From Natrinema gari JCM 14663 (lineage in GTDB: Archaea; Halobacteriota; Halobacteria; Halobacteriales; Natrialbaceae), in contig NZ_AOIJ01000061.1 of the NCBI RefSeq assembly GCF_000337175.1, positions 1 through 64,000 of the forward strand: 64,000 nt of DNA, in the 5' to 3' direction. A program made the position numbers and the translations under genes. Position 1 is the first letter of the stretch. Each line of letters opens with the position of its first letter. Below are positions 4,193-61,148 of the stretch, piece by piece. The notes under the pieces are model-generated. The model was not told the origin of the DNA. It saw only the letters and a list, made by a program, of their open reading frames with translations, and searched no databases.

Positions 4193-4378
4193 TCAGTCGA
4201 GCGAAGCCGACCAGACCTGTACCCGCGGCGTTCCGCAGCTATCACAGACGATCGCCCTGTTGTCCTTGTACCGGCCCCGCTCGAGTTCGCCGTCCGAACA
4301 GTGGTGACAGGCTCGTCCCTCGAGGAGCGCGAGCAACTGCTGACGGCCGCCGGCGTCCGCGGACTCGGAGTTCGCCAT
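4193..4378 (-). CDS. HVO_A0556-family zinc-finger protein
   Basis: A 61-residue protein with two knuckles, CHHC in LLEGRACHHCSDGELE and CDSC in RAIVCDSCGTPRVQVW. This matches the layout I remember for the HVO_A0556 family of small haloarchaeal zinc-finger proteins. I prefer the ATG at 4378 (MANSESADAGG). A GTG at 4393 would add MCEHC, which contains an extra CxxC but is not typical of the family. No partner gene is obvious. DNA binding has been suggested for such proteins but is not shown by this sequence. Confidence 0.75.
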   Translation of the reverse strand: MANSESADAGGRQQLLALLEGRACHHCSDGELERGRYKDNRAIVCDSCGTPRVQVWSASLD

Positions 4379-14720: not shown

Positions 14721-16025
14721 TCAGCCGAGTATGGCTCCGTCGCTTTCGTTGCCCCCATTATCGGTTTCGTTCGTGCTTTCGTTGCCCGTTTCGGTTACCG
14801 ACGCGTTGTCGTCGCCTTGCTGCTCGAGTGCCGCTTGGACGCCCTCGGTTTCACCGACCGAAACCGTACTCACGTTGCTGCTTTCGACCATCATCGAACT
14901 CGCCGAGAGCGACGAAATCGTCTCACCCTCGGTCATCTCGGCGTCGTCGACTGCGGTTTCGGTCGTCTCGTTGTCGGCCGTCTCGTTGGCTATGTCGTCC
15001 GTCTGGGTGCCGTCTTCGGACTCGTTGTCGTCGGTCTGGTTGAATATGCCATCCGTCTGGTTACCGTCTTCGGACTCGTTGTCGTCGGTCTGGTTGAATA
15101 TGCTATCCGTCTGGTTACCGTCTTCGGACTCGTTGTCGTCGGTCTGGTTGAATATGCCGCCCATCTGGTTGCTCGCTTCTGACTCGTTGTCGGCCGTCTC
15201 GTTTGCTTCTTGGGCCGTCTCCCCGTCGTCAACCCGATCGAGCGTGCCGATGGTCATCGATTCGAACGTGATCTCATCGACGTCGAACTCCTCGACGGTC
15301 AGCGACTCGATCATCTCGGTGCTTTCGTTCGTCTCCCCGGTACTTTCGTTCTCGTCGGCGGTGCTTTCGTTCGTCTCGCCGCCGCCATCGCCGTCACCGC
15401 CGAACAGACCGCTGACGAAATCGGAGATGCCCGAGAGGATTCCCCCGTCGCCGTCCTCGACGGTGAGGTCCTCGATCATCAACCGATCGGCGGTCATCGA
15501 CTCGATCGTCATGTTCTGAACCGCCACGGTATCGGCGTCTTCGCTGAGCACCTGTTCGATGCCGTCCGCCGATTCGTTGTCGGTCGCGGCGGCGCTCTCG
15601 TTGTCGCCCTCACTCTCGTTGGCCCCGTCGATGCCACCGTCCGTCTCGAGGTCGGTGATCGAGACGTTCTCGAGCGCGAGCGAATCGAGGGAGACGTTCG
15701 AGATCGTGACGCCGCTGGTCTCGGACTGGTTACCGGCCGCGGACTGGTTGCCCGCCGACTCGTTCAGTTCCTCGAGCTGCTCGCTGTCCTGGATGTCCAG
15801 CTGTTGGACACTGAGCTCCTCGATCGTTGCGTTTTCGACGGTTATGTTTTCGAGTTCGAGCGTGCTGACCTGTACGTTCTCGAGCGTTGCGCTCGTGTCG
15901 CTCATGTCTCCGGCGTCGTTCGCGGCTGTGTCCGTGGTCGCTCCACCGACGAGGGCGGGACCCCCCGAGAGCAGAACCAGCAGCGCGACGAACGCGACGC
16001 CGATGTGTTGCGATCGTGAAACCAT
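14721..16025 (-). CDS. Secreted acidic surface protein with pentapeptide-like and NQTDDNESEDG repeats
   Basis: A 434-residue exported protein with a Sec-type signal peptide (HIGVAFVALLVLLSGGPAL). Two regions alternate. One has short strand-like repeats such as LENVQVSTLELENITVENAT and MTIESMTADRLMIEDLTVED, suggesting a beta-solenoid resembling pentapeptide-type repeats. The other is acidic low-complexity sequence full of NES, NQT and NET sequons. Near the C-terminus, three copies of an 18-residue repeat (NQTDDNESEDG plus QTD-IF) follow each other. No C-terminal membrane anchor is seen. A surface-exposed, glycosylated stalk or coat is the best inference. Confidence 0.75.
   Translation of the reverse strand: MVSRSQHIGVAFVALLVLLSGGPALVGGATTDTAANDAGDMSDTSATLENVQVSTLELENITVENATIEELSVQQLDIQDSEQLEELNESAGNQSAAGNQSETSGVTISNVSLDSLALENVSITDLETDGGIDGANESEGDNESAAATDNESADGIEQVLSEDADTVAVQNMTIESMTADRLMIEDLTVEDGDGGILSGISDFVSGLFGGDGDGGGETNESTADENESTGETNESTEMIESLTVEEFDVDEITFESMTIGTLDRVDDGETAQEANETADNESEASNQMGGIFNQTDDNESEDGNQTDSIFNQTDDNESEDGNQTDGIFNQTDDNESEDGTQTDDIANETADNETTETAVDDAEMTEGETISSLSASSMMVESSNVSTVSVGETEGVQAALEQQGDDNASVTETGNESTNETDNGGNESDGAILG
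15012..15173 (-). repeat. 54-bp tandem repeat, three copies
   Basis: The string GTCTTCGGACTCGTTGTCGT starts at 15012, 15066 and 15120, so the period is exactly 54 bases. The copies are nearly identical. In frame they encode an 18-residue unit within the surface protein. High identity suggests recent amplification and likely length variation between strains. Confidence 0.88.
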
Positions 16026-16413
16026 GCGCGCCGGGGTAGGATCGTCGCGGGGCTAAAACGGGCAGACTGTTACGGCATTACCGACGGGAAAATCGATGTT
16101 TCGGGCACGAGATCGAGCGGGTACGGCCGACCCCGTCGTCCCTCGTTCGATCGCCACGCCCGCCGGGAGTCGAGCGGAACCGACACGCCGGTATCGCGCC
16201 GTCTCCCGTTGCACGGCCGTCCGAGACCGGATCGCACGTCGACCGATTCCACAGCGATCGGTTACCGTCCCCTCCGGATGCAAAGTATCGGTTATCGTGG
16301 TGAAACGGCACCGACTGCTGAGTTGCAGGCCCGTTCGGGCGAGACCGGCGGCTCGTCCTGCCGACCGGGTTCCGGCACGGTCGCTCGAGGCTGTGGCCAA
16401 GCGGACGGGTCCG
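16026..16413. other. Gap without a recognisable gene
   Basis: I find no convincing protein on either strand. The left end should contain the promoter of the surface protein gene (minus strand). Long open frames here are only GC-rich shadows. Confidence 0.45.
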
Positions 16414-16605
16414 TTACCCGAGCCGGAGCTCTCGCGTCTCGACGGCGTTGCAGGTGGGACAGACGAACTGATAGCGGACTCGCCCGCCCGAGGTGGTGAC
16501 ACGCCACCCACCCTCCGTGTCGACGTATCCGCAGGCCGGACAGCGGAGGTCCGACTCGTCGAACTTCTCGCGGAGCCGCTCGAACGGTGACCGATGCACC
16601 GACAT
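16414..16605 (-). CDS. HVO_0649-family zinc-finger protein
   Basis: A 63-residue protein with a zinc ribbon: CPACGYVDTEGGWRVTTSG, then VRYQFVCPTCNAVETRELRL. Two CPxC knuckles on either side of a GGWR hairpin match the HVO_0649 family as I recall it. The N-terminal helix SPFERLREKFDESDL is charged. Its ATG at 16605 is about 27 bases from a TATA box (ACTATATAAC, about 16627-16636). Function unknown, probably regulatory or an adaptor. Confidence 0.8.
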   Translation of the reverse strand: MSVHRSPFERLREKFDESDLRCPACGYVDTEGGWRVTTSGGRVRYQFVCPTCNAVETRELRLG

Positions 16606-16625
16606 ATGTTAGTATACACCACGAC

Positions 16626-16637
16626 ACTATATAACAT
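16626..16637 (-). promoter_or_regulatory. TATA box of the zinc-finger gene
   Basis: An AT-rich element (ACTATATAAC) about 27 bases before the ATG at 16605, in the region shared with the divergent LOV regulator gene. Confidence 0.6.
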
Positions 16638-16709
16638 TGTTCCGCCGGATTCCCGGCTCGACCGTTGACCGATCACAACGGTTCTTAGGCAGCCATCCGT
16701 AGAGGGCAT

Positions 16710-18602
16710 ATGGACGATGTCGACACGGAGCGCGGTCGCCCCGTCGACGACGCCGCAGCGGCGGCCCGCGCCCTCGAGCACGTGGTCGATCCGGTCGTCG
16801 CAGTTACCGAGGGAACGATCACGTACGCGAACGAGGCCGCTCGCGACGCCTTCGAACTCGGCGACGCCGACCGCGAAGCGGCGACCGCGCTCGGGACGCG
16901 CTGGACCCGCCTCGCAACGGCGATCGACGAGACGACCGTCGGTACCGCCCGGCAAGTCGACCTGGCGGACCACCGAGAGCGCGTCCGTATCCACCGCGGG
17001 GCGAGCGGCGCGACGCTGACGTTCGAGCGCGAGGGGACGAGCGCCGACGCCACCGCCGAGAGCGTGGGTAACTCCCGCTCGGGCGCGAGCGATCGACTGG
17101 TGAAAGACCGCGCGCTCGAGGAGGCCCCCGTCGGGATCACCATCTCCGACCCGGACCGCGAGGACAACCCGCTGGTGTACGTCAACGAGGCCTACGAGGA
17201 GATGACCGGCTACGAATTCGACGAAGTCGTCGGCCGGAACTGTCGGTTCCTCCAGGGCGAAGACTCCGACGAGGCAGCGATCGCCGAAATGGCGGCGGCC
17301 ATTGACGAGGATCGGCCCGTCACCGTCGAACTCAAGAACTACCGCAAGGACGGCACCGAGTTCTGGAACGAGGTCACGATCGCTCCCGTTCGGGACGAGG
17401 ACGGCCGCGTGACCAACTACGTCGGCTTCCAGAACGACATCACAGCGCGCAAGGAGGCCGAACTCGCGCTCGAGCGACAGACCGAGGAACTCCAGTACAT
17501 CCTCGATCGCGTCGAGGGGCTCATTCAGGACGTTACCGCCGTCGTCGCGGGCTCGACCGACCGCTCGGAACTCGAGCGCGAGGTCTGTGCGCGGATCGCC
17601 GCGGAGGACGCCTACGACGGGGTCTGGATCGGCGAGCGCAACCCCGCGACCGGGACGATCGACATCCGCTCGAGCGTCGGCGACGGACCCGACGGGGGGA
17701 CCGTTGCAACCGATACCGGCCACCCCGCCGCCGAGGCGCTCGCGACGACCGATCCGGCCGTCGATACCGCCGACGGACTGACGCGCGCCGCGTTTCCGCT
17801 GTCGTACAACGGGATCGAGTACGGCGTGGTGACGATACGGACGGAGCGAGCGATCGACGACCGCGAAACGGTGATCCTCTCCGCGCTCGCCCGCGCGGTC
17901 GCCAGCGGCGTCAACGCCCGCGAGACGAGCCGCATGCTCGCGACCGATGCCGTCGTCGCCGTCGAGCTCGAACTGACCGACCGCACCCTTCCGCCGGTCG
18001 CCCTCTCGGCGGCGGCCGACTGTCGTCTCGAGTACAGCCGGTCGGTTCACCGAACGGACGACGAGACGGCATCGTTGTTTACCGTTACCGGCGCGAGTGC
18101 CGACGAGATCACCGCAGCCGCCGACGAACTGGCCGACGCCGACTGTCGCATCGTCGTCGAGCGCGACGAGGAGTGTCTCGTGGAGGTAACCGGCGGGGAG
18201 GACCTCGTCGGCTGGCTCTCCGAGCGCGGCGTCCGCACGAAGGCCATCGACGCCGAGGCCGGTCGCGCACGCGTCACGCTCGAGATTCCGCGCTCGGCGA
18301 ACGTGCGTTCGGTCGTCGAGGCCGTCGAAGACCGCTACGACGGGACCGATGTCCTCTCGTTCCAGCAGCGCGAGCCCGACAGCGAGACCCGCCAGGAGTT
18401 CGCCGCCCGTCTCGAGGAGGCGCTGACCGATCGTCAGTTCGGCGCGCTACAGCGGGCGTATCTCGGCGGCTACTTCGAGTGGCCGCGGCCGACGACCGGG
18501 GAGGAACTGGCCCAGTCGATGGGCGTCTCCCGACCGACCTTCCACGAACACCTGCGGACGGCCGAGGCGAAACTGTGTCGAGCCTTCTTCGGGGACGCGT
18601 AG
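16710..18602 (+). CDS. PAS/LOV-GAF-HTH_10 regulator (Bat-like)
   Basis: A 630-residue sensor-regulator. A weak N-terminal PAS-like part (about 20-110) is followed by a PAS domain at about 135-250 with a LOV signature: GRNCRFLQGED places a cysteine at residue 178, the position that forms the flavin adduct in blue-light receptors. VTVELKNYRKDGTEFWNEV and NYVGFQNDITARKEAE also fit LOV. A GAF domain (about 285-410) and a bacterio-opsin activator linker follow. The C-terminus is an HTH_10 domain (LTDRQFGALQRAYLGGYFEW, GEELAQSMGVSRPTFHEHLR). It should bind DNA in response to light or redox state. Bat of Halobacterium has the same plan. The target genes are unknown. Confidence 0.9.
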   Translation: MDDVDTERGRPVDDAAAAARALEHVVDPVVAVTEGTITYANEAARDAFELGDADREAATALGTRWTRLATAIDETTVGTARQVDLADHRERVRIHRGASGATLTFEREGTSADATAESVGNSRSGASDRLVKDRALEEAPVGITISDPDREDNPLVYVNEAYEEMTGYEFDEVVGRNCRFLQGEDSDEAAIAEMAAAIDEDRPVTVELKNYRKDGTEFWNEVTIAPVRDEDGRVTNYVGFQNDITARKEAELALERQTEELQYILDRVEGLIQDVTAVVAGSTDRSELEREVCARIAAEDAYDGVWIGERNPATGTIDIRSSVGDGPDGGTVATDTGHPAAEALATTDPAVDTADGLTRAAFPLSYNGIEYGVVTIRTERAIDDRETVILSALARAVASGVNARETSRMLATDAVVAVELELTDRTLPPVALSAAADCRLEYSRSVHRTDDETASLFTVTGASADEITAAADELADADCRIVVERDEECLVEVTGGEDLVGWLSERGVRTKAIDAEAGRARVTLEIPRSANVRSVVEAVEDRYDGTDVLSFQQREPDSETRQEFAARLEEALTDRQFGALQRAYLGGYFEWPRPTTGEELAQSMGVSRPTFHEHLRTAEAKLCRAFFGDA

Positions 18603-18712: not shown

Positions 18713-18898
18713 ATGTTCGCGTTCGCACCTCCGCTGCAGATGGGCGGCGGTGAGTACCTGTACTTGGCGCTCATCTTTTTGCTCCTCGTGATCGTCGCCG
18801 CCGTCGGTGCCCGCGGCGTTGCCGGGATCTCGATGGAGATCGAACGGATCTTCGTGCTGGTCTTTATCATCCTCGCAGTGATCGCGCTGTTGTTGTAA
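18713..18898 (+). CDS. DUF1328-like small membrane protein
   Basis: The ATG at 18713 opens a 61-residue frame. It has a hydrophobic segment at about residues 15-36, a GARGVAGISMEIERI turn, and a second hydrophobic segment to the end. The helix, GxxGVAG turn, helix plan matches the YtjA/DUF1328 family of tiny membrane proteins. A TATA box (GGTTTATATGG, about 18680-18690) lies about 28 bases upstream. The first residues (MFAFAPPLQMGGG) are haloarchaeal in style. Confidence 0.75.
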   Translation: MFAFAPPLQMGGGEYLYLALIFLLLVIVAAVGARGVAGISMEIERIFVLVFIILAVIALLL

Positions 18899-19113: not shown

Positions 19114-21039
19114 ATGACAGCACTCGGCGGATTTCAGGACAGGGTCGCCCGCATCGATCTCTCGGACGGGGAGATCGCGTACGAGTCGATCGACGACGAG
19201 GACGCAGCGAAGTATATCGGTGCGCGGGGGCTCGGGGTAAAGTACGTCTTCGACCAGGGACCGGGGGTCGATCCGCTCGGTCCCGACAACCTGTTGGCCT
19301 TTATGAATGGCCCGCTGTCGGGCACGCAGGTGACGATGAGCGGTCGGATCGCCGTCTGCACGAAGTCGCCGCTGACCGGGACCGTCACCGACAGTCACCA
19401 CGGCGGCTGGTCGGGAGCCCGGCTCAAGTGGGCCGGCTTCGACGGACTGTGCTTCGAGGGCGAGGCCGACGACCCGGTCTACGCCTACGTCGAGGACGGG
19501 TCCGTCGAACTCCGGGACGCCTCCCATCTCTGGGGTGCGGGTGTCCACGAGACACGGGACCGACTCGAGGAGGAACTCGAGGGGTCGTACGGCAAGAACC
19601 TCTCGTTGATGGCGATCGGACCCGCCGGCGAGAACGGCGTCAAGTACGCCTGCATCATCAACGAGGACGACCGAGCCTCGGGACGGGGCGGCACCGGCTG
19701 CGTGATGGGGTCGAAGAACCTCAAAGCGGTCGTCATCAAATCGACTACGGAGATGCCCAAGCCGGCCGATCCGGAGACGTTCAAAGAAGGCCACCAGCAG
19801 GCGATGCAGGCCATCCAGGAGTCGGAGGTCACCGCGCCCAACGAGGGCGGCCTCTCGATGTACGGGACGAACGTCTTGATGAACATCGGCGAGGAGATGG
19901 ACGGCCTCCCGACGAAAAACGGTCAGTATACGTCGACCGAAAGCATGCGCGACACGGAGGGCGTCGACATCGACGCCGAACGCGTCTCCGGCGAGAACGT
20001 CCGTGAGAACATCCTCGTCGACGAGCCGACCTGTCACTCCTGTCCGGTCGCCTGCAAGAAGGAAGTCGAGGTGACCGCGATGCACAAAGGCGAGGAGATG
20101 AACGTCCGGACCGAGTCCTACGAGTACGAGTCGGCGTACGCGCTCGGCCCGAACTCCGGCCACACCGACCGCGACAAGATCGCGCTCATGCTCGAGCGCT
20201 GTAACGACATGGGCATCGACACCATCGACGGGGGCAACATGATGGCGATGGCTATGGAAATGACCGACGAGGGCAAACTCGAGGGCGTCGGCGAACTCGA
20301 GTGGGGCGACACCGAGACCATGATCGAGATGATCGAGCGGATCGCCCGCCGCGAGGACGAGTTCGCGGACCTGTTGGCCGAGGGCCCGCGCCGCGTCGCC
20401 GACCGCAAGGACGCCCACGACAACTCGCTGGCAGTCAAGGGTCAGACCATCGCGGCCTACGACCCGCGCTGTATGAAGGGGATGGGCATCGGCTACGCCA
20501 CCTCGAACCGCGGGGCCTGCCACCTGCGCGGGTACACTCCCGCCGCCGAAATCCTCGGGATCCCCGAGAAGGTCGACCCCTACGAGTACGAGGGGAAAGG
20601 CGAGCTCACCGCTCAGTTCCAGGACCTCCACGCCATCAGCGACTCGTTCGACATCTGCAAGTTCAACGCCTTCGCGGAGGGCATCGAGGAGTACGTCCTG
20701 CAGTACAACGGCATGACCGGCCGCGATGTCACCGAGGAGGAACTGCTCGAGGCCGGCGAACGGATCTACAACTTGGAGCGGTACTACAACAACCTCAACG
20801 GCTTCGACGGGAGCGACGACTCGCTGCCAGCGCGCTTCCTCGAGGACGGTATCCGCGGTCAGGGTGCCAGCGAGGGCGAGTACTGCGAACTCGCCGAGAT
20901 GAAAGACGAGTACTACGACCACCGCGGCTGGGTCGACGGCGTCGTCCCTGACGAAAAACTCGACGAACTCGGAATCGAACTCGGGCCGGGGACGGGCGTC
21001 AGCATCGAGGGCGGTGCGGCTGCATCGAGCGACGACTGA
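19114..21039 (+). CDS. aor: Aldehyde:ferredoxin oxidoreductase, tungsten-dependent
   Basis: A 641-residue member of the AOR family, which oxidises aldehydes to acids and reduces ferredoxin, using a tungsto-bispterin cofactor and a 4Fe-4S cluster. The N-terminal cofactor domain shows GARGLGVKYVFDQGPGVDPL and GRGGTGCVMGSKNLKAVVIK. The cluster ligands are Cys307, Cys310 and Cys314 (CHSCPVACKKE) and Cys515 in SFDICKFNAF. The C-terminus is intact and acidic. Haloarchaeal homologues are of similar size. The SAMP3-like ubiquitin-fold protein at 26415-26693 belongs to the MoaD family that helps make such pterin cofactors. Substrate not predictable. Confidence 0.95.
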   Translation: MTALGGFQDRVARIDLSDGEIAYESIDDEDAAKYIGARGLGVKYVFDQGPGVDPLGPDNLLAFMNGPLSGTQVTMSGRIAVCTKSPLTGTVTDSHHGGWSGARLKWAGFDGLCFEGEADDPVYAYVEDGSVELRDASHLWGAGVHETRDRLEEELEGSYGKNLSLMAIGPAGENGVKYACIINEDDRASGRGGTGCVMGSKNLKAVVIKSTTEMPKPADPETFKEGHQQAMQAIQESEVTAPNEGGLSMYGTNVLMNIGEEMDGLPTKNGQYTSTESMRDTEGVDIDAERVSGENVRENILVDEPTCHSCPVACKKEVEVTAMHKGEEMNVRTESYEYESAYALGPNSGHTDRDKIALMLERCNDMGIDTIDGGNMMAMAMEMTDEGKLEGVGELEWGDTETMIEMIERIARREDEFADLLAEGPRRVADRKDAHDNSLAVKGQTIAAYDPRCMKGMGIGYATSNRGACHLRGYTPAAEILGIPEKVDPYEYEGKGELTAQFQDLHAISDSFDICKFNAFAEGIEEYVLQYNGMTGRDVTEEELLEAGERIYNLERYYNNLNGFDGSDDSLPARFLEDGIRGQGASEGEYCELAEMKDEYYDHRGWVDGVVPDEKLDELGIELGPGTGVSIEGGAAASSDD

Positions 21040-22657: not shown

Positions 22658-23317
22658 ATGGTTTCGGGGATTCGTGCGGAAGTGAAGATCGACGACCCGT
22701 CCGAGTGCGTCGTCGCGCAGGTCTCGGCCGAGACGGACGGTCGGGTCAACTCCGTCTCGCGGAGTATCAACCCGTCCGCGCCCGACCGCATGACCGAGGA
22801 ATTCATGCTCGAGGCCGACAGCTATCCCGACGAGTTCGACGTCGACGCGGCACTGTCACCGATCTTCTCCTACGGCTCGAGTGCGGTCTACCGATACGAG
22901 CGCGACCTCGAGTGCGGTTGCCCCTGCGAGTGTATCGAGGCACACGACTGCCCGGTAGTCGACATCCGCACGCAGGGGGCGGCGCTGTTCCTGACCTTTC
23001 ACGCACCGGACATGCACGCGCTCCAGGCCGTCATCGGCGACCTGCGCGAGCGCTACGCGACCCTCGATGTTCAGCGACTGCTGCAGTCCCAACAGGATCA
23101 CGACGACCGCAACCTCGTCTTCGTCGACCGGAGTACGCTGACCGACCGCCAGACCGAAGTCCTCGAGACGGCCCACCGAATGGGCTACTTCGATCACCCC
23201 AAGCGGGCCAACGCCGGCGAAGTCGCCGACGAACTCGGAATCACCGGGACGACGTTCACTGAACATCTCGCGGCAGCCCAAACGAAACTGCTCGACGCGA
23301 TTCTCGATCACGAGTAG
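22658..23317 (+). CDS. HTH_10 regulator with a cysteine-rich sensor segment
   Basis: A 219-residue Bat-type regulator without PAS or GAF domains. Residues about 1-70 form a beta-rich domain. Between about residues 86 and 99, the ECGCPCECIEAHDCP stretch packs five cysteines and one histidine, suggesting a metal or redox site. VVDIRTQGAALFLTFHAPD follows. The C-terminal HTH_10 is clear: LTDRQTEVLETAHRMGYFDH and GEVADELGITGTTFTEHLAA. The clustered cysteines could sense metal, oxygen or nitrosative stress. It is divergently arranged with the winged-helix regulator at 22027-22413. Confidence 0.85.
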   Translation: MVSGIRAEVKIDDPSECVVAQVSAETDGRVNSVSRSINPSAPDRMTEEFMLEADSYPDEFDVDAALSPIFSYGSSAVYRYERDLECGCPCECIEAHDCPVVDIRTQGAALFLTFHAPDMHALQAVIGDLRERYATLDVQRLLQSQQDHDDRNLVFVDRSTLTDRQTEVLETAHRMGYFDHPKRANAGEVADELGITGTTFTEHLAAAQTKLLDAILDHE

Positions 23318-50980: not shown

Positions 50981-51437
50981 TTCGGACAGCTTTCGGGCAG
51001 AGCCGGCACAAATTCTGCTGGTCGAGGACAACCCCGGCGACGTTCGCCTGACCAAGGAAGCGTTCAAGCAGGGCCGGATCGAGAACGACCTGCACGTCGT
51101 CTCCGACGGGACCGAGGCGTTGGACTTCCTCGGACGACAGGGGCCGTACACCGACGCACCGCGCCCGGATCTCGTCCTCCTGGACCTCAATCTGCCCGGG
51201 AAAGACGGCGCAGAGGTCCTGGAAGAACTCAAGGCGGACCCGGTGCTGCGATCGATTCCGGTAATCGTCTTGACGAGTTCGCGCGCGGAAGAAGACGTCG
51301 TCAAATCCTACGAACTCCACGCGAACGCCTATCTCACGAAGCCCGTCGATCCAGACGAGTTCATCGAGACGGTCCGAGCCTTCGAGAAGTTCTGGTTTTC
51401 GGTCGTTCGGCTTCCGCCGGAGGGTGATTCGGAATGA
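50973..51437 (+). CDS. Single-domain response regulator (CheY-like receiver)
   Basis: A 154-residue receiver protein. [20 protein letters not shown] starts the fold. Asp71 in [14 protein letters not shown] is the phosphorylation site. [20 protein letters not shown] gives the Thr/Ser switch, and [20 protein letters not shown] the Lys. There is no output domain. It overlaps the next gene by four bases (ATGA at 51434-51437), so it forms an operon with the receiver-GAF-HTH_10 regulator. The two may share a kinase. Confidence 0.92.
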
Positions 51438-53125
51438 GCGAGACGAACGCCCGGACCGAGACGGAACGGGACGGGGAGCCCGCCGACACGCTTCGTGTCC
51501 TTCTCATCGAGGACAATCCGGGCGACGCTCGGCTGATCGAGGAGATGCTCCGGGATACCGAAGAACTCGCCCAGCGAGTCAGTCCCATCGAATCGACCGG
51601 GCAGACGCCGGACCTGTCGCGGGAAACGCGTCTCGAGGACGGCCTCGAGATAGTCGACGCCGAGCCGACGGACATCGTGTTGCTCGATCTGAACCTGCCC
51701 GACAGCGAGGGGCTGGCGACCCTCGAACGGGTGCACGAGGAGACGGAGGAGACGCCGATCGTCGTCCTGACGGGCGTCCGCGACCAGCAGGTCGGCGTCG
51801 AGGCGATCCAACGCGGCGCGCAGGACTTCCTCGTCAAAGACGAGGTGACGAGCGAACTGCTGGTGCGGACGATCCACCACGCGATCGAACGCGCCCGTCA
51901 AGAGCGAGAGCGCCGCCAACAGCGCGAACATCTCGAGGCGCTCAACCGGCTCAACCGGATCGGACACGACATCACCCACGCGGTGATCACGACCGAGACG
52001 CGGGCGGAACTCGAACAGGAGGTGTGCGATCGGCTCGCCGAGTCCGACGCCTATCGGTTCGCCTGGATCGGGGGCGTCAATCCCGGGAGCGACCGCGTCG
52101 TCCCGAAGGCGGCGGCCGGCGTCGAGGACGGATACCTCGATGAAATAGATGTCTCCGTCGCCGAGGACGACGAGAGCGGACGCGGGCCGGCCGGAACGGC
52201 CATTCGGACCGAGCGGGTACAGGTTATGAACGACGCCCGGACGGACCCCGAGTTCGGACCGTGGCGAGAGCAGGCGCGTGCCCGTAACTTCCGGTCGGCG
52301 GCGGCGGTCCCGCTCATCCACGAAGACCTCGTCTACGGCGTGTTGAACGTGTACGCGTCGTCACCGCGGGCGTTCGAGGGGCTGGAGACCGGGGTGTTCG
52401 CCCGGATCGGCGACATCATCGCCCACGCGATCACGGCGATCGAACGCAGGGACGCACTGGTCAGCGACGCCGTGGTCGAACTCGAGTTCCGCGTCGAGGC
52501 GATGGCCGAACCGCTGGTCGAACTCTCGGCGACCGAGTCGTGTACGATCACGTTCGAGCAGTTGGTCAGCGGCGACGAGGCGCTGCTGGCCTACGGCTCG
52601 GCACACGGCATCTCCCAGGAGGCGTTCAGCGACGCCATCGACGACACTGACGGGATCGGCGACGTGCGGTTCCTCTCAGTCAGGCGCGACGACCTCGAGT
52701 TCGAACTGGTCGCGCCCGCGGCCGTCTCGCTGTTCGAGACGATCGCGACCCACGGCGGTCGCGTCGCCTCGGCGACGATCGCCGACGGGGAGTTTCGCTT
52801 CGTCGTCGAACTCCCGCGGGGTCGGGACACCCGTCAGATCATCGAACTCATCAGAAACCAGCGCGACGACATCACCTACCTCGCCCAGCGGACCACCGAA
52901 CGCAGCGAGCGCATCGACTCCGGCTCGGCGTCGGTCCTCGAGGAGGAGCTGACCGAGAAACAGCGAGCGGCACTCGAGACGGCCTACTTCGCGGGCTACT
53001 TCGACTGGCCGCGGGGCAGCACCGGTGAGGAGATCGCCGAACGGCTCGGGATCGCGCCGGCGACGTTCAACCAGCACCTCCGGACGGCAGAACGGAAGTT
53101 CTTCAATTCCGTCTTCGGTGAGTAG
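51434..53125 (+). CDS. Receiver-GAF-HTH_10 transcriptional regulator
   Basis: A 563-residue regulator. The receiver domain (about 19-145) has [20 protein letters not shown], Asp85 in [14 protein letters not shown], and [24 protein letters not shown] domain (about 185-335) includes [20 protein letters not shown] and [21 protein letters not shown] bacterio-opsin activator linker follows, then the HTH_10 at the C-terminus ([40 protein letters not shown]). It should bind DNA when phosphorylated or when the GAF ligand binds. It overlaps the CheY-like gene upstream. Confidence 0.92.
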
Positions 53126-57956: not shown

Positions 57957-60900
57957 ATGGGCACGACAACCGGACCACACACTCGAGTCGTCGTCGTCGG
58001 CGAAGACGCCGCGGACGTGGCACGCGCTCTCGAAGAGCGCGACGTGTCGACCGAGTCGGTTCGGACGGCCGATGCGTGCCTCGAGCGACTCCCGAACGTC
58101 GACGGCGTCGTGATCGCAGCGAGAGCACGGTCGGACGCCGACCTCGTCGATTGCTGTCGGGTGATTCGAGACAGCCGCTCCGCGGTCCCGATCGTCGTCT
58201 TTCCCCACGACGGAAGCGAACGGCTCGCGGGTGCAGTCGTCGCGGCGGGAGCGGACGGCTACGTCCCCCGTTCGCAGGGGGTCGAGACGCTCGTCGATCG
58301 GCTGGACGCGCTCCTCGAGGCATCGACACCCGACGCCCGCTCGACGCCCGCGGACGCCCCGACGATCAACGCGGCATCGGCGGCGGACGCCGACTCGGCC
58401 CGACTCGAGTCGCTCATCGAACAGTCGCCGCTCGCGGTCATTGAGTGGACCCTCGAGTACGAAGTCCGCAACTGGAATCCGGCCGCGGCCGATCTGTTCG
58501 GATACACGGCCGCGGAGGCGATCGGCGAATCCGCTGTCGACCTGATCGTCCCGGACTCCGACCGCGACACCGTCCGAGAGTTGCGAGAGCGGATCGCCGA
58601 CAACGAACCCGATAGCGGGTCGTTCTGCCGGATCGACTCGAACGTCCGCAAGGACGGGACGGCGATCACCTGCGAGTGGTTGAACACGCCGCTGGTCGAC
58701 GACGAGGGAGAGATCGGCAGCGTTCTGTCGTTCGTCCGGGACGTGACCGCCGAGCGCAAGCGCACGAACGCACTCGAGGCACTCCAGGAAACGACCCGAG
58801 AGCTACTGCGGGCCGAGTCGACCGACGAAATCGCCGACATCGTGATGACGGCGGCGGAAGACGTGATCGATCGACCGCTCGGCGCGATCAGGTTCTACGA
58901 CGACGACAGCGAGACCCTCGAACTCGCCGGTGTGACGCCACTACTCGACGCCAACACTGACGAGATCCCGCCGATCGAGCCGGACGGCTCGATCCTCTGG
59001 GACGCCTACACCGACAGCGAACCGACCGTCATCGAGAACGTCTCGACCGACCGGATTCCGTACGAGATCGAGACCGACGTGGGAAACTCGCTTCTCCAGC
59101 CACTCGGCGATCACGGCATGTTGTCGGTCGCGTCGGTTGGGTCGAACGAACTCAGCGATGCCGAGTTCCACCTGATCCACGTTCTCGCGACGACCGCCGA
59201 GGCCGCGCTCGATCGAGCGGCACACGATCGCGAACTCGAGCGGACGAAGACGGTCGTCGAGACGGTCGGGGACTGTGTCTACCAACTCGATCGCGACGGC
59301 CGGTTCGTCGAGGTCAACGACGGGATGAAGGATAGGACCGGATACGACCGAGACGAACTCCTCGGCGAACACGTCTCGCGGATACTCTCCGACGAGAGCG
59401 CCGAACGCGGACGGCGACGCGTCCGGGAACTGACGGCCGACGACGAGCAGCGTACCGCGACGTGTGAAGTCACGCTGACCGGGGCCGACGGCGAACGGAT
59501 TCCCGCCGAAGTCAGTATGGCGCTGTTGCGGTCCGACGGCGATATCGAGGGCACCGTCGGCATCGCCCGCGACATCAGTGATCGCAAGCGAATGGAGCGG
59601 GAACTGGTCGACCGGAAGGCGAAAATCGAGGGCCTCCACACCGTTGCGTCTCGGCTCGAAGACTGTGAGAGCCGGGAAGCGATCTACGACGTGGCCGTCG
59701 AGGCGGCCGAAGATATCCTCGGCTTCGATCGCTGTTTCGTCGACAGGATCTGTGGGGGAGCCATCGTGACGGAAGCCGCGTCCTCCGGTCTCGAGATCGA
59801 TCGCGGGGAGCAACGCCCGTTCGACGAGGGCATCGCCGGACGGACGTATCGGTCGCGACGACCTTCCCGTGTCGACGAGATCGATTCGGACGATGGGATC
59901 ACGTCCCGTATCGACAACTGCCGGTCGGTGCTGAGCGTTTCGATCGGTAATCACGGCGTGTTTCAGGCCGTTTCGTCCGAGCCCGACGCGTTTACCGCGG
60001 CCGACGAGGAACTGACGGAACTGTTGTTATCACACGTCACCGATGCGCTCGACCGGATCGCGTTCGAGGAACGACTGCGGGCCGAACGCGACCGGTTCGC
60101 GGCGTTGTTCGAAAACGTTCCCGACGCCGTCGTCAGCGTCAGCCGACTCGAGGACGGCCCGATCGTCGAGGACGTCAACCCAGCGTTCGAACGAATTTTC
60201 GGCTACGACGAGGCGGACCTCGTCGGAACGGCCCTCGACGAGATCATCGTGCCGCCCGATCGACGGGCCGAATCCGATACCCTCAATCGCCGGGGCAACC
60301 GCGGTGAGATCGGCGAGGCAGAGGTCAAACGCCGAACTGCGGACGGCCTGCGCGATTTCCGACTGCGGGTCGTCCCGATGGAGATGGACGGGTCGTCGGA
60401 TCGCGGCTTCGGGCTCTATACCGATATCACCGCCCAGAAACAGCGACAGAAACGCCTCGAGATACTCAATCGGGTCCTCCGCCATGACCTGCGCAACGGC
60501 ATGAACATCATCAACGGCTGTGCGGAGATGCTCGTGGACGCGGTCGACGACGCCGACAGCGAGTACGTCGAGACCATTCAGAACCGGACGCGGGAACTCA
60601 TCGGACTCGCGGAGAAAACCCGAACCGTCGAACGCGTCCTCGACCGTGAGACGGTCGCGGCCGGCCCCGTCGACCTCACCGAGGCCGTCGAAGGGGCCGT
60701 CGCCCGCCTCGAGAACACCCATCCCGACGTCGAGGTCACCTGCTCGCTGCCGGACGGAGCCTTCGCTCGCGCCGACGAATACCTCCGGACGGCCGTCTTT
60801 CAGGTGCTCGAGAACGCCGTCGAACACAACGACCAAGCGCGGCCGACCGTCGACGTGACGGTGTGTGACCGGCCGGACCAGGAGGAACTAACGTTGTCAG

Positions 60901-61148
60901 TCGCCGACGACGGTCCCGGTATCCCTCCCGAAGAGCGAGAACTACTCGAGGGCGACCGGGAGATCACACAACTCCGCCACGCGAGCGGGCTCGGTCTCTG
61001 GCTCGTCAACTGGGTCGTGACCCAGGCCGGCGGTCAGCTCACGTTCCATGACAACGAACCTCGAGGGACCGTGGTGACGCTTTCGATTCCGCGCGCCGAC
61101 GCGGAGTCGGTCCGGTCGGCGTCGGACGAACCGGCGACCGGCGATTAG
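57957..61148 (+). CDS. Multi-domain PAS/GAF sensor histidine kinase
   Basis: A 1063-residue soluble kinase. The start resembles a degenerate receiver (VVVVGEDAADVARALEERDV) without a clear phosphorylation Asp. PAS domains occur at about 145-260, 425-540 and 705-825; GAF domains at about 275-415 and 550-690. The phosphorylated His843 lies in ILNRVLRHDLRNGMNIINGC, and the ATPase domain follows (QVLENAVEHNDQARPTVDVT, LSVADDGPGIPPEERELLEG). There are no membrane helices. It could sense several cytoplasmic signals, possibly redox or light. The partner regulator is unknown. Confidence 0.92.
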   Translation: MGTTTGPHTRVVVVGEDAADVARALEERDVSTESVRTADACLERLPNVDGVVIAARARSDADLVDCCRVIRDSRSAVPIVVFPHDGSERLAGAVVAAGADGYVPRSQGVETLVDRLDALLEASTPDARSTPADAPTINAASAADADSARLESLIEQSPLAVIEWTLEYEVRNWNPAAADLFGYTAAEAIGESAVDLIVPDSDRDTVRELRERIADNEPDSGSFCRIDSNVRKDGTAITCEWLNTPLVDDEGEIGSVLSFVRDVTAERKRTNALEALQETTRELLRAESTDEIADIVMTAAEDVIDRPLGAIRFYDDDSETLELAGVTPLLDANTDEIPPIEPDGSILWDAYTDSEPTVIENVSTDRIPYEIETDVGNSLLQPLGDHGMLSVASVGSNELSDAEFHLIHVLATTAEAALDRAAHDRELERTKTVVETVGDCVYQLDRDGRFVEVNDGMKDRTGYDRDELLGEHVSRILSDESAERGRRRVRELTADDEQRTATCEVTLTGADGERIPAEVSMALLRSDGDIEGTVGIARDISDRKRMERELVDRKAKIEGLHTVASRLEDCESREAIYDVAVEAAEDILGFDRCFVDRICGGAIVTEAASSGLEIDRGEQRPFDEGIAGRTYRSRRPSRVDEIDSDDGITSRIDNCRSVLSVSIGNHGVFQAVSSEPDAFTAADEELTELLLSHVTDALDRIAFEERLRAERDRFAALFENVPDAVVSVSRLEDGPIVEDVNPAFERIFGYDEADLVGTALDEIIVPPDRRAESDTLNRRGNRGEIGEAEVKRRTADGLRDFRLRVVPMEMDGSSDRGFGLYTDITAQKQRQKRLEILNRVLRHDLRNGMNIINGCAEMLVDAVDDADSEYVETIQNRTRELIGLAEKTRTVERVLDRETVAAGPVDLTEAVEGAVARLENTHPDVEVTCSLPDGAFARADEYLRTAVFQVLENAVEHNDQARPTVDVTVCDRPDQEELTLSVADDGPGIPPEERELLEGDREITQLRHASGLGLWLVNWVVTQAGGQLTFHDNEPRGTVVTLSIPRADAESVRSASDEPATGD

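Follow-up and report, generated by a model that had tools for sequence, protein, structure and literature searches.

A predicted blue-light regulator of the LOV-Bat class in the haloarchaeon Natrinema gari

Introduction

Archaeal light control of transcription is known mainly from bacteriorhodopsin, whose regulator Bat lacks a photoactive cysteine. Could a Bat-type regulator that carries such a cysteine serve as a blue-light switch? The question is raised by a gene, hereafter LOV-Bat, located at 16710-18602 in the first 64,000 nucleotides (the window) of contig NZ_AOIJ01000061.1 of Natrinema gari JCM 14663. Its product is probably a one-component blue-light transcription regulator, in which formation of a Cys178-flavin adduct would be relayed through helices to the BAT and HTH_10 domains. 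It combines a canonical LOV domain with a Bat-type regulator, is matched at E<=1e-130 in 93 of the 121 family genomes searched, and has no second LOV-grade domain beside it in the genome (169.9 bits for LOV-Bat and 38.6 for the next match in a YtvA profile search), which makes it a clean gene for testing blue-light switching. The locus also bears on whether Bat-type regulators need zinc-finger microprotein partners; light-driven transcription by a canonical LOV-Bat protein, the zinc-finger partner and an arginine-to-alanine change in the LOV domain are all worth testing. Domain layout, LOV residues, conservation, predicted fold and neighbourhood were computed here.

The LOV domain and its conservation

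The LOV domain is very probably canonical, with Cys178 as the predicted flavin-adduct cysteine. Its closest solved structure is that of Bacillus YtvA (phmmer; protein E 1.3e-37, domain E 4.8e-38), and because the LOV region aligns with YtvA from end to end, the motif GRNCRFLQGED, which the initial annotation had singled out and whose cysteine is indeed residue 178, is not a chance motif. Residues 133-268 are nearest to the NCBIfam YtvA blue-light photoreceptor family, at 167.8 bits, short of the cut-off of 250 that applies to the whole protein, as a match to one domain should be. The LOV-defining set was taken as the ten YtvA residues named in PMC4682037, and all ten are kept (G175, N177, C178, R179, F180, L181, Q182, N210, N220 and Q241), with N210, N220 and Q241 corresponding to YtvA N94, N104 and Q123 in the alignment with 2mwg. 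These three flavin-ring contacts are present in 54/54, 54/54 and 53/54 rows of alignment A1, respectively. Cys178 is kept in 34/34 family orthologs (loci L021-L054) and in 53 of the 54 A1 rows, the exception being L063, which has His. The predicted LOV fold superposes on 9vf7_D (Z 22.0; 1.1 Å for 138 residues) and on YtvA 2pr5_A (Z 20.1). Position 237 holds Tyr where Phe is usual, a substitution reported for the equivalent position in many archaeal LOV domains (PMC12202551).

The nearest orthologs are those of Natrinema pallidum (97%) and N. altunense (96%). Against four Natrinema orthologs, the ratio of nonsynonymous to synonymous substitution rates was 0-0.18 for the LOV domain and 0-0.036 for HTH; the N-terminal part gave 0.20-0.35 and GAF 0.30-0.39. 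Six full-length homologs of 44-46% identity (L134-L139), all in one other family, keep the cysteine in every case (6/6). Across the order, 117/195 genomes give some match at E<=1e-60, many of which are other Bat-type proteins.

Domain architecture and proposed mechanism

The gene and its parts are as follows.

16710-18602, + strand: LOV-Bat regulator gene, 630 residues, ATG start, single open frame; PAS-like, LOV, GAF, BAT and HTH_10
16794-17030, + strand: N-terminal PAS-like region, residues about 29-107 (predicted strand/helix order only; no Pfam call)
17097-17447, + strand: LOV domain, residues 130-246 (phmmer match to YtvA 2mwg/2pr5; VIA-align Z 20-22)
17241-17243, + strand: Cys178 codon, expected flavin-adduct cysteine (ortholog conservation)
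17292-17294, + strand: Ala195 codon, at the usual position of the second flavin mononucleotide (FMN)-phosphate Arg (alignment column)
17442-17552, + strand: predicted long helix from LOV to GAF, residues 245-281 (AlphaFold2 model, DSSP)
17553-17945, + strand: GAF domain, residues 282-412 (GAF_2 matches of homologs and separate model)
17946-18404, + strand: BAT domain PF15915, residues 413-565 (Pfam 140.5 bits, cut-off 25.8)
18423-18578, + strand: HTH_10 PF04967 DNA-binding domain, residues 572-623 (Pfam 69.7 bits, cut-off 23.1)

A LOV sensor fused to HTH_10 had been proposed at these coordinates, and the exact open reading frame, the LOV residues and the HTH_10 match over its cut-off bear this out. 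Pfam placed PAS (140-246), BAT (413-565) and HTH_10 (572-623), each above cut-off and the last two in the Bat-type order, and gave no REC match in the protein. PAS, LOV, GAF and HTH thus lie in one chain, the first PAS being recognised by predicted secondary structure only. The GAF domain, also part of the initial annotation, received no Pfam call at E<=0.1 when the full-length protein was scanned, and segment 282-412 alone gave a weak GAF_2 match (18.9 bits, cut-off 28.6). It is nevertheless well founded, as 46/48 homologous segments match GAF_2 and the segment predicted alone (mean predicted local distance difference test score, pLDDT, 92.4) finds its best structural matches among free methionine sulfoxide reductases and solved GAF domains, one of them DevS GAF-B with a template modelling score of 0.82. 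GAF precedes BAT, as in Bat-type regulators. The full-length AlphaFold2 model has a mean pLDDT of 81.3 and a predicted template modelling score of 0.52, because of which the placement of the domains relative to one another is unsure; a second long helix (residues 384-411, DSSP) lies between GAF and BAT. LOV matches took up the fold lists obtained with this model. A 665-residue frame on the opposite strand (16053-18050) that overlaps the gene has no gene signs and was taken as a by-product of high G+C content.

LOV-Bat belongs to a class that sequence work had already described, and it is well preserved. A 2014 survey of 167 archaeal LOV proteins described the layout (RR/GAF/PAS)+LOV+nPAS+kGAF+HTH, from which that of LOV-Bat does not differ, and reported an HTH in 30% of halobacterial LOV proteins and that none of the archaeal LOV-HTH proteins had been investigated (PMC4844311). 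The literature listings and passages covered contained no experimental work on a LOV-Bat protein with the cysteine.

We infer flavin binding, adduct formation, a signal route, DNA binding, a zinc-finger partnership and a set of targets. Bound in the LOV domain, a flavin would absorb blue light and form a covalent adduct with Cys178; the resulting change at flavin N5 and Gln241 would alter the continuous helix 245-281 that leads into GAF, and the signal would pass via helix 384-411 to BAT and HTH_10, which would bind target promoters differently, the promoter of LOV-Bat possibly among them. The GAF domain and the PAS-like N-terminus may contribute a second signal, and a divergently encoded protein of the HVO_0649 family may serve as co-regulator in the manner of Brz. 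For the photochemical step there is a precedent of like kind in ALovD-1 from Lake Diamante, a related haloarchaeal LOV domain with proven FMN binding, a 390-nm adduct and cycling at 3 M salt; the domain studied belongs to a histidine kinase (PMC12202551).

Other known systems share parts of this design. The LOV domain of Bacillus subtilis YtvA (2mwg, 2pr5) is about 49% identical and has the same ten residues, and the protein has a STAS output instead of GAF-BAT-HTH. EL222 has a different type of HTH and neither GAF nor BAT. It has in common with LOV-Bat the one-component logic of LOV plus HTH (EL222 is named in PMC4844311). Halobacterium Bat and Halorubrum BAT-LOV* share with LOV-Bat the series of PAS/LOV-like, GAF, BAT and HTH_10 domains. 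The published Bat domains lack the adduct cysteine, as stated for Halobacterium Bat (PMC4844311), whereas LOV-Bat has Cys178; it also differs from Bat in having no detected REC and in not being encoded beside a rhodopsin. An N-terminal REC is typical of Bat-like proteins and can be diverged or replaced (PMC5847659).

Residue 195 and the flavin cofactor

Two arginines contact the FMN phosphate in all LOV proteins according to PMC4335406. The first is R179 here; the second position, which retains Arg in YtvA, holds Ala195. The initial annotation had named missing flavin contacts as the finding that would speak against a LOV sensor, and the alignment supports the LOV sensor on this point: the ten defining residues are intact, the one deviation being the replaced second phosphate-contacting arginine. 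The latter, usual as it is in LOV domains, lies outside the ten residues of PMC4682037. Column 195 of A1 is split between A (26), R (27) and W (1), with A in Natrinema and its neighbours, whereas 37 of 38 comparison LOV domains, most of them parts of histidine kinases, have R at the equivalent position. Mapping A onto the A1 tree, which was built with column 195 included and contains long branches, requires at least five changes, of which well-supported branches force at least two.

Ala195 may therefore alter cofactor choice or affinity, and it is possible, though less likely than not, that with the loss of this arginine the domain binds riboflavin or flavin adenine dinucleotide (FAD), has a fast photocycle or exists partly in the apo form in vivo. 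The distribution of A and R at this position favours such a change. Every other contact residue is intact, however, relatives of the same layout retain Arg, so that the role is probably shared, and apo W619_1-LOV bound FMN, FAD and riboflavin alike (PMC5314338). The literature listings and passages covered contained no mention or measurement of an Ala195-type change. An altered cofactor is compatible with a blue-light regulator, since the cofactor would change and the role would not.

Promoter region

Two elements stand upstream of the start codon.

16680-16689, + strand: putative TATA-like GGTTCTTAGG, some 25 bp upstream of the LOV-Bat start codon (upstream-region alignment)
16692-16707, + strand: degenerate dyad copy, with its centre 10 bp upstream of the ATG (a clear dyad is confined to non-Natrinema relatives)

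The dyad takes the form CCTAC..GTAGG in 24 non-Natrinema relatives, between the TATA-like element and the start. At -10 their upstream regions average 3.46 of 7 paired positions, against 1.84 (standard deviation 0.36) over 94 centres; L036, whose anchor is missing, was dropped from this count, L039 is mis-anchored and some rows are near-copies. From this position, autoregulation of LOV-Bat is a fair guess and is put no higher. Of the eight genomes searched, G100 alone contains the exact palindrome CCTANNTANNTAGG, as a single copy at the start of LOV-Bat, and consequently no regulon emerged from it. Its backward controls occur 0-5 times per genome and strand; the palindrome is rarer than the control in 7/8 genomes, both being zero in G169. 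The idea of a shared operator near the zinc-finger gene was also rejected: the TATGNTAACAYATG-like start region is present in genomes without a LOV-Bat ortholog as well (e.g. L120) and thus gives no evidence for LOV-Bat binding.

The zinc-finger gene and the neighbourhood

The genes flanking LOV-Bat that recur in its relatives are listed below.

16414-16605, - strand: divergent 63-residue CPxCG zinc-finger protein, HVO_0649 family, candidate partner (110.6 bits, cut-off 70)
18713-18898, + strand: small DUF1328-like membrane protein (sub-threshold DUF1328 match, 24.4 bits, cut-off 27)
19114-21039, + strand: aldehyde ferredoxin oxidoreductase family protein, downstream of LOV-Bat

The divergent zinc-finger microprotein that had been noticed next to LOV-Bat proved to be a full match to the HVO_0649 family and to be conserved in place. 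In 31 of the 33 loci that could be assessed it adjoins the LOV gene (absent from L039 and L049; L054, cut by a contig end, was left out), and in a second, partly overlapping genome set it is divergently adjacent by coordinates in 24/24 family members with a full ortholog. Downstream, the DUF1328-like gene is found in 32/34 loci and the oxidoreductase gene in 28/34; the upstream PadR, NUDIX and secreted-protein genes are confined to the 13 Natrinema-like loci.

Besides Bat, both Brb and the small zinc-finger protein Brz are needed for light induction of bop, the brz-brp intergenic region contains an inverted repeat, and brz and brp-bat are divergent, judged by the F/R strand letters of the gene names (PMC3184054, PMC2253796). 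The zinc-finger and LOV-Bat genes are laid out likewise, and by analogy the HVO_0649-family protein may act as a co-regulator of LOV-Bat, as Brz does with Bat. Deletion of HVO_0649 has been listed with loss of swarming (PMC6562870). A search for a Brb-like small basic gene at 16026-16413 gave tblastn matches to L021 and L022 in six frames and a weak one to L025, with no frame-specific conservation.

Weighing the evidence for a light switch

Several points weigh against a blue-light regulator with this partner and operator. Ala195 replaces one of the two phosphate arginines, so FMN may be held weakly. For a Cys-less Bat LOV domain, integrated sensing of redox state and light has been suggested (PMC4682037), so that the main input could be something other than light. 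In the window the dyad is present only as a degenerate copy, and 14 Natrinema-type rows peak elsewhere (-24). The zinc-finger gene is adjacent in 0/6 of the full-length homologs of the other family (L134-L139). G189, a genome of the same genus, has a 46-residue LOV-gene remnant (L143, about 4239-4376) between intact zinc-finger and DUF1328-like genes, with the aldehyde ferredoxin oxidoreductase gene also retained nearby; this is a loss of LOV-Bat. G140 has no LOV gene, and there too the zinc-finger, DUF1328-like and oxidoreductase genes are still together. The last three observations weaken a functional linkage drawn from synteny alone. The operator and partner named here are candidates.

The redox suggestion can be taken further, to a protein that is mainly a redox or oxygen sensor, its flavin reduced chemically or by photoreduction and Cys178 just raising light sensitivity. 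Halorubrum BAT-LOV*, studied in 2015, has Pro for Cys, binds flavin and responds to reduction by changing shape (PMC4682037), Halobacterium Bat responds to both oxygen and light (PMC3184054), and Tyr at 237 in place of the usual Phe also fits such a function. A cysteine kept in 34/34 orthologs, on the other hand, is needless for a pure redox role, and we regard this explanation as improbable.

Still less probable is a dedicated light activator of bacteriorhodopsin, i.e. the Bat of this species. The Bat-type layout agrees with it, and the genome holds a rhodopsin whose helix-C motif we take to be like that of bacteriorhodopsin. The rhodopsins of this genome nevertheless lie on other contigs than LOV-Bat, and rhodopsin genes are found in 56/93 family genomes with the LOV gene against 15/28 without (p 0.66); restricted to the 34 genomes whose best rhodopsin match reaches E<=1e-60, the figures are 29/93 and 5/28 (p 0.23), all these counts including incomplete genomes. 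For want of this association a dedicated bop activator was rejected as the leading explanation, and since the zinc-finger gene outlasts the LOV gene and the LOV gene is unlinked to rhodopsins, a dedicated bacteriorhodopsin role is unlikely.

A one-component blue-light regulator accordingly stays the preferred explanation. Its most extended form, which we hold to be rather doubtful as a whole, would be a haloarchaeal photo-adduct LOV-Bat module apart from bacteriorhodopsin, with an HVO_0649-family partner, repression or activation of its own promoter, and a loss of Arg in several lineages that leads to riboflavin or FAD binding or to a fast photocycle.

Other CPxCG genes and further features of the window

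Beyond LOV-Bat, a CPxCG microprotein gene lies near 3/10 BAT-domain loci of this genome (L001, L002 and L008, under a looser CPxCG definition). When 30 BAT loci were compared with 30 histidine-kinase loci, such a gene was found within 600 bp in 4 vs 0 (one-sided p 0.056) and within 1.5 kb in 5 vs 0 (p 0.026), with fewer pairs under a stricter motif. A general pairing of Bat-type regulators with zinc-finger proteins is thus only suggested. CPxCG genes likewise accompany boa2 and boa4, either adjacent or nearby (PMC3184054, PMC2253796), and another REC-GAF-BAT-HTH protein, near which a CPxCG gene is drawn, affects motility (PMC7824242).

The closest paralog of LOV-Bat in the genome, whose PAS domain lacks the LOV residues, has a divergent 52-residue CPxCG microprotein (L002, 1101-1259, - strand). 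LOV-Bat genes of other families are followed directly downstream by a CPxCG protein of 48-49 residues (L140, 4606-4752; L141, 3102-3248; L142, 4931-5080), the L140 reading frame being a DUF7563 match.

Elsewhere in the window, 14721-16025 (- strand) encodes a predicted secreted protein of 434 residues with many N-x-S/T sites and no Pfam or NCBIfam match; it contains a 54-bp tandem repeat (4.4 copies, 14967-15203) and, among the fetched loci, was matched only in the Natrinema-like ones. A DmsR-type regulator (DmsR_N plus HTH_10; 22658-23317, + strand) has counterparts in many relatives, again downstream of the oxidoreductase gene. The window also holds a second Bat-type regulator with REC-GAF-BAT-HTH_10 (51434-53125, + strand) and a large histidine kinase with several PAS and GAF domains (57957-61148, + strand).
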